From Truepera radiovictrix DSM 17093 (GTDB taxonomy: Bacteria > Deinococcota > Deinococci > Deinococcales > Trueperaceae), in contig NC_014221.1 of assembly GCF_000092425.1 (NCBI RefSeq), forward strand, positions 2,237,001 through 2,301,000: a stretch of 64,000 nucleotides of DNA, given 5' to 3'. Of this stretch, positions 56,402 through 59,179 are shown piece after piece. The position numbers and the translations under genes are program-made. Numbering within the stretch: the stretch's first letter is position 1; the number at the start of each line of letters is the position of its first letter. Under the pieces are notes generated by a model, which saw nothing but the letters and a program-made list of their open reading frames with translations, did no database searches and was not told the origin of the DNA.

Positions 56402-57361
56402 ATGAACGCCATCACCGTACACCGAGACAAGCTCGTTTGGGAAGACGTCCCCGACCCCCGACCCGCCGCCGGCGAGGTGCTCGTGCGGGTGCGCGCGGCG
56501 GGCGTCAACCGCGCCGACCTCGCGCAGCGCGCGGGCCACTACCCCCCGCCGCCGGGGGCGTCCGAGATCCTGGGGCTCGAGGTCGCCGGGGAAATCGCCG
56601 AACTCGGTCCTGGCGTGAGCGGTTGGCGGGTCGGCGACCGCGTCTGCGCGCTTCTCGCCGGGGGCGGTTACGCGGAGCTCGTCAACGTCCCCGCGGCGCT
56701 CCTCATGCCGGTTCCGGAGGGGTGGCGCTTCGAGGAGGCCGCCGCTCTGCCCGAGGTCTTTTTCACGGCTTTTCTCAACCTGTTTCTCGAGTGGAACCTC
56801 AAAGAGGGGGAGGCCGTGCTCATCCACGGCGGCGCGAGCGGCGTGGGCACGGCGGCCATCCAGCTCGCCGTAGCGGCGGGCTGCACGGTGTTCGCCACCG
56901 CCGGCACCCCCGAAAAGGTCGCCGCGTGCGAGGCGCTCGGCGCCACGGCCTTTAACTACCGCGAGGAGGACTTCGCGGAGGCGCTGACGCCGCACGTCGC
57001 GGGCGTCGACGTGGTGCTCGACATGGTCGGCAAAGACTACCTGGCGCGCAACCTCAGGGTCCTCAAAACGGGTGGGCGCCTCATCGTGATCGCTACCTTG
57101 AGCGGCAACCGCGCCGAGATCGACCTGCGGCTGCTCATGCAAAAGCGCCTGACGCTTAGGGGCTCGACCCTGCGAAGCCGCCCGCTAGGCGAAAAGGTCG
57201 CCCTCAAAGAGGCGTTTATGGCGCGCTTTTGGGAGCGCATTGAGGCGCGGCGGCTACGGCCCCTTATCGACAGCACCTTCGACATCCGCGAGGTGGAAAG
57301 CGCGCACGAGCGGATGCGGGGAAATCAGAACATCGGCAAACTCGTGCTGCGCGTCCCTTAA
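56402..57361 (+). CDS. NAD(P)H:quinone oxidoreductase (zinc-free MDR family)
   Basis: A 319-residue medium-chain reductase of the quinone reductase group (PIG3-like). It has GVNRADLAQRAGHYPPPPG, the family block EAAALPEVFFTAFLNLF, and the NAD(P)-binding VLIHGGASGVGTAAIQLA; no zinc-ligand Cys cluster is seen, which excludes the alcohol dehydrogenases. The ATG is 5 nt after TACCCT (56391-56396), and no ribosome binding site is visible. Confidence 0.9.
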   Translation: MNAITVHRDKLVWEDVPDPRPAAGEVLVRVRAAGVNRADLAQRAGHYPPPPGASEILGLEVAGEIAELGPGVSGWRVGDRVCALLAGGGYAELVNVPAALLMPVPEGWRFEEAAALPEVFFTAFLNLFLEWNLKEGEAVLIHGGASGVGTAAIQLAVAAGCTVFATAGTPEKVAACEALGATAFNYREEDFAEALTPHVAGVDVVLDMVGKDYLARNLRVLKTGGRLIVIATLSGNRAEIDLRLLMQKRLTLRGSTLRSRPLGEKVALKEAFMARFWERIEARRLRPLIDSTFDIREVESAHERMRGNQNIGKLVLRVP

Positions 57362-57394
57362 GGTTGCTTAAGCTATCTAAGGGAGACCGGTCAC

Positions 57395-57465
57395 AAAAAA
57401 AGAACTCTGAGAGGATCTCCGCCGGGGGGGGCAGCGGGGTGCGGAGATGCAACCCTCAAAGTTCT
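57395..57465 (-). ncRNA. Candidate small hairpin RNA (or displaced lpd terminator)
   Basis: On the minus strand a two-part hairpin runs from 57465 to 57401: an outer arm AGAACTTTGAG/CTCAGAGTTCT (one mismatch), an internal loop, then ATCTCCGC/GCGGAGAT (57415-57448) with a C-rich loop. TTTTTT follows. A promoter (TTGCAT-16-TAAACT, 57471-57498) ends just before it, so the predicted RNA of about 70 nt would be almost all hairpin. No known RNA family is recognised. Confidence 0.4.
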
Positions 57466-57470
57466 AGGTT

Positions 57471-57498
57471 AGTTTACACCAAACGCCGCAGAATGCAA
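57471..57498 (-). promoter_or_regulatory. Promoter in front of the candidate small RNA
   Basis: TTGCAT (57493-57498) and TAAACT (57471-57476) on the minus strand, spacer 16 nt. The predicted start is at about 57464. Confidence 0.45.
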
Positions 57499-57518
57499 GT
57501 GCCTTTTGGCGTCTTTTG

Positions 57519-57546
57519 CCCTCACCGCTCCTAATCGCGGTGAGGG
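57519..57546 (-). terminator. Hairpin after lpd
   Basis: CCCTCACCGC pairs perfectly with GCGGTGAGGG around 8 nt, 45 bp after the lpd stop. There is no T-run on the minus strand. Confidence 0.5.
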
Positions 57547-57590
57547 GGAGCGATAACAGCAGCGCTGAAGCGGGGTGCGGGCGCCGAGCC

Positions 57591-58976
57591 CTACCGCCGC
57601 CGCTTGTTGGCCACGTGGATCGCCATGCCGTGCGCCGCTTCGGCGGCCTCCATAAAGCTCTCGGCGATCGTGGGGTGCGCGTGCTGGGTGAGCGAGATGT
57701 CCTCCAAGGTAGCCCCCATCTCGATCGCCAGCGCCGCTTCGGCGACCATGTCGCCCGCGGCGGGTCCGACCATGTGAAAGCCGAGGAGCAGATCGGTCTC
57801 CTCGTCGCCGATGACCTTGACGAGCCCCTCGGAGACGCCTAACGTCATCGCCCGACCGGAGGCCGCCAGCGGAAAGACGCCCACGCGCACCTTGTGCCCC
57901 GCGTCCTTCGCCTCCTGCTCGGTCATCCCGACCGACGCGAGCTCCGGGCTCGTGTAGACCACCGCCGGCACGATGGTGTCATAAGCGGCCGGCTTGCCGG
58001 CGGCGTGCTCGGCGGCGACGATCCCCTCTTTCATCGCCTTGTGGGCCAGCAGGGGCGGTTTGGTCACGTCGCCGATGGCGTAGATGTGCGGCACGTTGGT
58101 CTGCATGTGCGCGTTTGTCGGCACGAAACCGCGCTCGACCGTCACGCCGACCTCCTCGAGCCCCAACCCCGTCCCACGCGGTTTGCGCCCGACGGCGACC
58201 AGGATCTTGTCGACGACGAGCGTCTCTCTCTCCCCGCCCCGCTCGAGGGTGACCTCGATGCCGTCAGCGGTCTTTTTCTGGTTGAGGGCCTTTGTGCTCG
58301 TCAAGATCTTGATGCCGCGCTTTTCAAAGGACTTGCGCAGCTCTTTGGCGGCGTCGCGGTCGGCAGTCGGGACGATCTCGTCCATGAGTTCAACGACCGT
58401 CACGTCGCTGCCGAGCGCGTGGTAGATGTCGGAAAATTCAAGGCCGATAGCGGAGCCGCCGATGGCCAAAAAGCGCTTCGGCACCTCCGACACCAAAAGC
58501 GCCCCCGTCGAGTTGACGATGCGCTCGCCGTCCGTCTCGAAACCCGGGATCTCGATGGGCTCCGAACCGGTCGCCACGATGATCTTCTCCGCCGTCACGC
58601 TCCGGTCGCCGACCTGCACGGTGTGCGGGTCTTTCAAGGTCGCGCGCCCCTCGATGAGGTCGACCTTGTTGCCCTTTAAAAGGCTGCGCACCCCGCCGGT
58701 CAGCTTCTGCACCACGCCCGACTTCCACGCCTCGAGCTTTTTAAGGTCCACCTTGGGTTCGCCGAAGTCGATGCCGTAGCTTTTGGCGTGCTTCGCCTCG
58801 CGCAGGTCCTCGGCGACGTGGAGTAGCGCCTTGGTGGGGATGCAGCCGACGTTCAAGCAGACGCCCCCCACATACTCCTGTTCGACGCACGCCGTTTTTT
58901 TGCCGAGCTGCGCGGCCCGAATCGCCGCGTGGTAACCACCCGGCCCCGAACCGATCACCAGAACTTCGTAGTCCAT
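57591..58976 (-). CDS. lpd: Dihydrolipoyl dehydrogenase (E3)
   Basis: Reoxidises dihydrolipoamide in 2-oxo acid dehydrogenase and glycine cleavage complexes. A 461-residue flavoprotein: FAD motif [19 protein letters not shown], redox disulfide [20 protein letters not shown] motif [19 protein letters not shown], second FAD motif IYAIGDV, and the catalytic His-Glu in [14 protein letters not shown]. The ATG at 58976 follows AAGAGGAGG. It stands alone, not beside E1 or E2 genes. Confidence 0.96.
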
Positions 58977-59179
58977 CGTCCCTCCTCTTGGGGTGAGGCG
59001 CCGCACCCTAGGGGCGCCAGCCGCTCCTCACGGGCTAACGGTAAGCACAACGGCCCAGTCTACCGCGCCGCGGGGGCGCGCTTTGAAGTGCGGCGCTTTG
59101 GCGAGACCAGGTAGCCGAACCGAGCGGCTCAACGACGCGGGAAGGTCGCGCGTCAAAGCGCGCTGTGCGATAGTGGAGC

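Follow-up and report, generated by a model that had tools for sequence, protein, structure and literature searches.

A conserved hairpin with a C-rich loop marks a candidate small RNA family in the Trueperaceae

Between a qor-like gene and lpd in the genome of Truepera radiovictrix DSM 17093 lies a hairpin that, to judge from its conservation in related genomes, very probably represents a genuine and hitherto undescribed stand-alone gene for a small RNA. The surrounding 64,000-nucleotide stretch of DNA that was analysed is referred to here as the window. Our full reading of the locus, in which the window copy is the founding example of an RNA family confined to the Trueperaceae and the conserved C-rich loop of the RNA acts by pairing with other RNAs, has in our estimation a probability of roughly 0.6.

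The anatomy of the locus is that reported in the earlier note: on the minus strand TTGCAT, a spacer of 16 nt and TAAACT precede a two-part hairpin of 65 nt and six T, and all of these elements are found in the sequence, with the six T beyond the 3' end of the hairpin at positions 57400-57395. A covariance model of the family, described below, matches the locus at 57392-57467 (G000:C1:2294392-2294467) with a score of 83.7 bits. Judged alone, the fold of the window hairpin is above chance to a modest degree; the 101 nt around it have a folding energy of -31.8 kcal/mol (z -2.49), which was equalled by 1 of 200 dinucleotide shuffles. The window promoter considered alone is no better than chance, because it agrees with the consensus at 7 of 12 letters (3 of 6 in the -35 and 4 of 6 in the -10 box) and falls below the threshold of the promoter scan. 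It is conservation that raises the locus above chance, through the 27 strong members of the family, their covarying stems and the presence of a -10-like box in all of them. We also observed that the 12-mer AGCGGGGTGCGG, which is complementary to the 5' half of the loop region, is found at 57433-57444 and occurs a second time at 57569-57580, just past the lpd stop.

Table 1. Features of the small RNA locus and its neighbours, in window coordinates.
Feature	Position	Strand	Basis
Predicted small RNA, ~70 nt	start ~57465/57464, end 57395	-	sequence and covariance model match
Hairpin, 65 nt: 13 bp, 4-nt/1-nt internal loop, 8 bp, 18-nt loop	57465-57401	-	sequence
Outer stem, 5' arm, AGAACUUUGAGGG	57453..57465	-	sequence, fold; covaries in 27 members
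Outer stem, 3' arm, CUCUCAGAGUUCU	57401..57413	-	sequence, fold, covariation
Inner stem, 5' arm, AUCUCCGC	57441..57448	-	sequence, covariation
Inner stem, 3' arm, GCGGAGAU	57415..57422	-	sequence, covariation
C-rich loop at the apex, ACCCCGCUGCCCCCCCCG, the proposed seed for pairing	57423..57440	-	loop identity 94%; ensemble mostly unpaired
U tract of predicted intrinsic terminator, 7 U, the first one paired	57395..57401	-	sequence
-10-like box, TAAACT	57471..57476	-	TAnnnT family-wide
-35-like box, TTGCAT, 16 nt ahead of the -10-like box	57493..57498	-	sequence
Separate G+C-rich hairpin of 10 bp, not followed by a T run; lies between lpd and the small RNA	57519..57546		sequence
lpd, dihydrolipoyl dehydrogenase, upstream, same strand as the RNA	57591..59006	-	TIGR01350, 554.7 bits (cutoff 408.8)
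Convergent qor-like gene for an NAD(P)H quinone oxidoreductase of the PIG3 family	56402..57361	+	TIGR02824, 423.6 bits (cutoff 296.8)

A DNA search of the window genome itself revealed a second copy at G000:C1:1652712-1652776, with 86% identity over the hairpin; upstream of this copy TTTACA and TATACT, spaced by 18 nt, agree with the consensus at 10 of 12 letters and end directly ahead of the hairpin. The same kind of search in 61 genomes gave strong matches in the Trueperaceae. The covariance search in related genomes, which the earlier note had proposed as a check, was made with a model built from an alignment of 23 members and returned 27 strong members (E <= 5.2e-12) in 24 of 39 Trueperaceae genomes and 12 of 17 genera, with two copies in three genomes. 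Four of these members (G061, G062 and the second copies of G006 and G010) lie outside the training set, and were found at E-values of 2e-20 to 6e-18. A strong match to the model is absent from the other 15 of the 39 genomes. A repeat element of the REP or MITE kind was rejected because each genome has one or two copies, and the phage and plasmid collections contain no match to the RNA element.

The RNA is usually flanked on one side by a divergent gene for a SAM-dependent methyltransferase and on the other by mreB or qor. The methyltransferase gene is upstream at no fewer than 18 of the 27 loci, and at 17 of these it is 75-177 nt away; downstream, mreB is found at 13 or more, directly adjoining at 9, and a convergent qor-like gene at 6 or more, the window included, while lpd is a neighbour at 1. 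These counts are lower bounds, as some contigs stop close to the RNA. The methyltransferase gene is present in 36 of the 39 Trueperaceae genomes, and its matches to class I methyltransferase profiles are all below the curated cutoff. Three genomes (G007, G014 and G019) have the complete order methyltransferase-RNA-qor-mreB, which looks ancestral; in the window genome the RNA and qor are still together and the methyltransferase gene is elsewhere.

The distribution of the RNA was followed in wider sets of genomes. An exact scan of 84,980 species genomes with the core pattern, which does not recognize variants that differ in the letters of loop or stem, found 13 loci, every one labelled Trueperaceae or Truepera. 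Among 111 genomes of the phylum the covariance model gave, beyond the Trueperaceae, only weak matches, one each in seven genomes (E 3e-4 to 8e-3); these were rejected as chance matches that do not have the loop and appear coding-like by eye, two of the seven being the same sequence in two genomes. Two weak matches within the family (G012:C216 and G035:C61) were excluded from the 27 on the same grounds. Eighteen loci that have the methyltransferase gene and no adjoining member were read by eye and searched with the model. One of them, in G015, yielded a more divergent member at E 0.006, in which TAGCGT is spaced as expected. Another, in G025, has a perfect 12-bp hairpin (L158 2336-2372) that is flanked by the methyltransferase gene and mreB and has the loop TCCCGCCCCCGCG; this is suggestive only, and is perhaps a far-diverged member of the family. 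Neither the model nor inspection by eye found a member at the remaining methyltransferase-side loci.

Comparison of the 27 members shows that 17 of the 21 stem pairs have changed on both sides, and 0 of 500 shuffles scored as high; this is the conserved RNA structure expected of a stand-alone small RNA. The proportion of stem cells that are paired is 90.3%, and falls to 41-52% when the partner is slid by one to three columns. In G007 and G019 the outer stem is almost entirely G-C, with its pairing kept. Mean pairwise identity is 94% in the loop, 77% in the inner stem, 59% in the outer stem and 41% in the tail, and the conserved apical loop motif, CACCCCGCUGCCCCCCC, is mostly unpaired in the predicted ensemble, as a conserved single-stranded C-rich loop should be. 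Members are 69-76 nt long and differ in length by single bases, which disfavours a protein-coding origin. The U tract of a predicted intrinsic terminator is present in the window copy and others, and is weak in several GC-rich relatives. Paired changes in the stems around an unchanging C-rich loop suggest that the loop grips other RNAs.

A TAnnnT box is found near the 5' side of the hairpin in all 27 upstream regions, and inside a 4-nt range in 24 of them (shuffle mean 4.7, largest 13), which would provide the RNA with a promoter of its own, so far as its letters can indicate. No family-wide -35 signal was found in these 27 regions, where 134 of 500 shuffles were as good; TTGCAA at a spacing of 16-17 in G001 and in both G006 copies may be compared with the TTGCAT of the window. 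A conserved element, roughly AAATGGTG or TTGTAAGC, precedes the -10-like box by some 33-42 nt and was matched by 0 of 1000 shuffles (27 loci; non-redundant set 22). By eye it is also present ahead of copies away from the methyltransferase gene (for example L085, L089 and L093), and is perhaps an activator site. At all nine loci where mreB directly adjoins the RNA (L070, L074, L076-L079, L090, L092 and L094), mreB has its own GGTAGCGTG box (TAGCGT) just ahead of its ATG. This suggests that mreB is transcribed leaderless, and shows by example the appearance of a -10 box in these genomes.

A spacing between box and start like that of mreB puts the 5' end of the RNA on the first base of the stem or next to it, and we propose that RNA polymerase starts there, about 6 nt past the -10-like box. 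One long hairpin would then be made and transcription would stop at the U tract, so that the entire RNA, about 70 nt long, would be a stable hairpin. The conserved C-rich loop would be its working part: it would pair in trans with G-rich sequence close to the ribosome-binding site in several mRNAs, and would thereby lower their translation. This trans-acting role is one that we infer from the analogous systems considered at the end. The pairing would proceed without Hfq, and no Hfq match was found in the window genome (control positive in 5 of 14). A small loop duplex test on the start regions of the 52 window ORFs singled out no target, with a p-value of 0.13 against gene interiors and 28 of 60 permuted loops as good. 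A pattern search for targets in the own genome, with up to three mismatches, is unusable because it finds too many places (463, compared with 324 for the reversed pattern). In the window, GGGGG-N4-9-ATG is over-represented (16 against 7.6), with most such ATG lacking a long ORF, and the GGAGG equivalent is similar (14 against 7.9).

The near-invariance of the loop, together with the result of the small 52-ORF test, in which no loop-specific complementarity to start regions was seen, would also be expected if the loop were bound by a protein instead of by mRNAs, with the protein sequestered or anchored by the RNA. We consider this unlikely, as there is no candidate protein and the own genome has neither a Ro/TROVE nor an Hfq match; moreover, comparable C-rich loops base-pair in other bacteria (PMC3771888, PMC12395582, PMC10470900). 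The Ro/TROVE search (PF05731) gave 0 matches in the own genome and was positive in the control, Deinobacterium chartae, which argues against a Y RNA of the Ro-associated type of Deinococcus.

The inner part of the RNA could also adopt an alternative fold, in which CUCCGC or CCGCUG pairs with the same GGCGG strand, and the pairing of CCGCUG with GGCGG would free CUCC, a possible Shine-Dalgarno binder. Over the 27 members, 95.7% of cells would permit this alternative inner pairing, with 0 two-sided changes. That two inner hairpins interchange in this way, in one family-wide, Hfq-free riboregulator made up of nothing but a single terminator hairpin, seems to us quite improbable.

To return to the stand-alone gene that we favour, the fact that it follows lpd in the same orientation and has a U tract at its end raises the question of whether the hairpin is merely the lpd transcription terminator, perhaps shared with qor. 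The earlier note had assigned lpd a terminator of its own at 57519-57546, and had argued from it that the RNA is a separate unit. The 10-bp hairpin at this position is real, but the minus-strand T run is absent (GCAAAAGACG), and both the terminator role and the argument drawn from it are thus unsupported; lpd still needs an end somewhere, and the RNA hairpin may also be usable for this purpose. As the entire function of the hairpin, termination of lpd is nevertheless very unlikely, given that lpd is next to it at a single locus, that at 18 loci the upstream gene is divergent and its transcripts are beyond the reach of the hairpin, and that a terminator would have no need of a conserved loop of 17-18 letters or of a -10 box ahead of it. 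The separate transcript of about 70 nt postulated in the earlier note finds better grounds in the family, in which a hairpin with a -10-like box at a near-equal distance occurs at 27 places and has lpd beside it at one.

The window RNA shares its strand with lpd, whose stop is about 125 nt upstream of it, and could instead be cleaved from the 3' end of the mRNA of lpd, or of other hosts, before acting as a small RNA. This is highly improbable in view of the -10-like box conserved at every one of the 27 loci and of the upstream gene that points away at 18 of them, where no host transcript is evident. It is scarcely credible that the RNA acts in cis as an mreB leader: the frequent downstream position of that gene and the weak U tracts at several mreB loci would fit, but a convergent qor-like gene comes next at the window and five other loci, and the TAGCGT box of mreB at all nine adjoining loci, as if for leaderless transcription, means that the RNA need not be its leader.

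We place the Truepera hairpin RNA as a new RNA family, of the C-rich-loop small RNA kind. No known family had been recognized in it in the earlier note, and the Rfam searches agree with this; at the gathering score the window contains only four tRNAs and 17 member loci are without a match. The sole matches at E up to 10, to sX8 and BTH_s1, are far under the cutoff and were dismissed. Searches of the open-licence literature brought up no small RNA described for Truepera or for this deep branch of the Deinococcota.

Several known systems bear comparison with the family. The Cuckoo RNAs of alphaproteobacteria are short and have a conserved C-rich, anti-Shine-Dalgarno-like loop, CCUCCUCCC; the loop of the Truepera RNA is CACCCCGCUGCCCCCCC, and the RNA has no Rfam match and belongs to another phylum. 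The 6C/B11 RNA is intergenic and short, is preceded by a -10 motif of its own and has C runs in its hairpin loops; in M. marinum its seed is the C-rich loop at the tip of the terminator (PMC12395582); the C-rich loops of B11/6C pair with ribosome-binding sites (PMC10470900), and 6C has two such loops (PMC6582537). The Truepera RNA is like 6C (RF01066, Actinobacteria) in being short and intergenic, with a -10 motif and a C-rich hairpin loop, whereas 6C, which in M. marinum is 93 nt long, has two C-rich loops, and the Truepera RNA has one hairpin with one C-rich loop and comes from a different phylum. The 6C model gave no match at the Rfam cutoff in the window and 17 member loci, and none in the own genome, where 150 of 2541 candidates were scored and the control, C. 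glutamicum, was likewise under the cutoff. The sX13 RNA of Xanthomonas is highly structured, and its C-rich apical loops repress mRNAs with G-rich motifs independently of Hfq (PMC3771888). It shares with the Truepera RNA a C-rich apical loop on a structured RNA, with a mechanism that is demonstrated for sX13 and inferred for the Truepera RNA; it differs in having three stem-loops and 115 nt, against one hairpin that has no Rfam match. The Truepera RNA may share its mode of action with 6C/B11 and sX13, but it belongs to neither, because it has one hairpin where they have two or three and because it matches no model. The family is well defined by its 27 strong members, matched stem changes and almost fixed loop, and since the window genome is also a complete single contig, expression and targets are directly testable. 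If the loop does work as in 6C/B11 and sX13, Hfq-free regulation by C-rich loops arose, or was kept, in another phylum.
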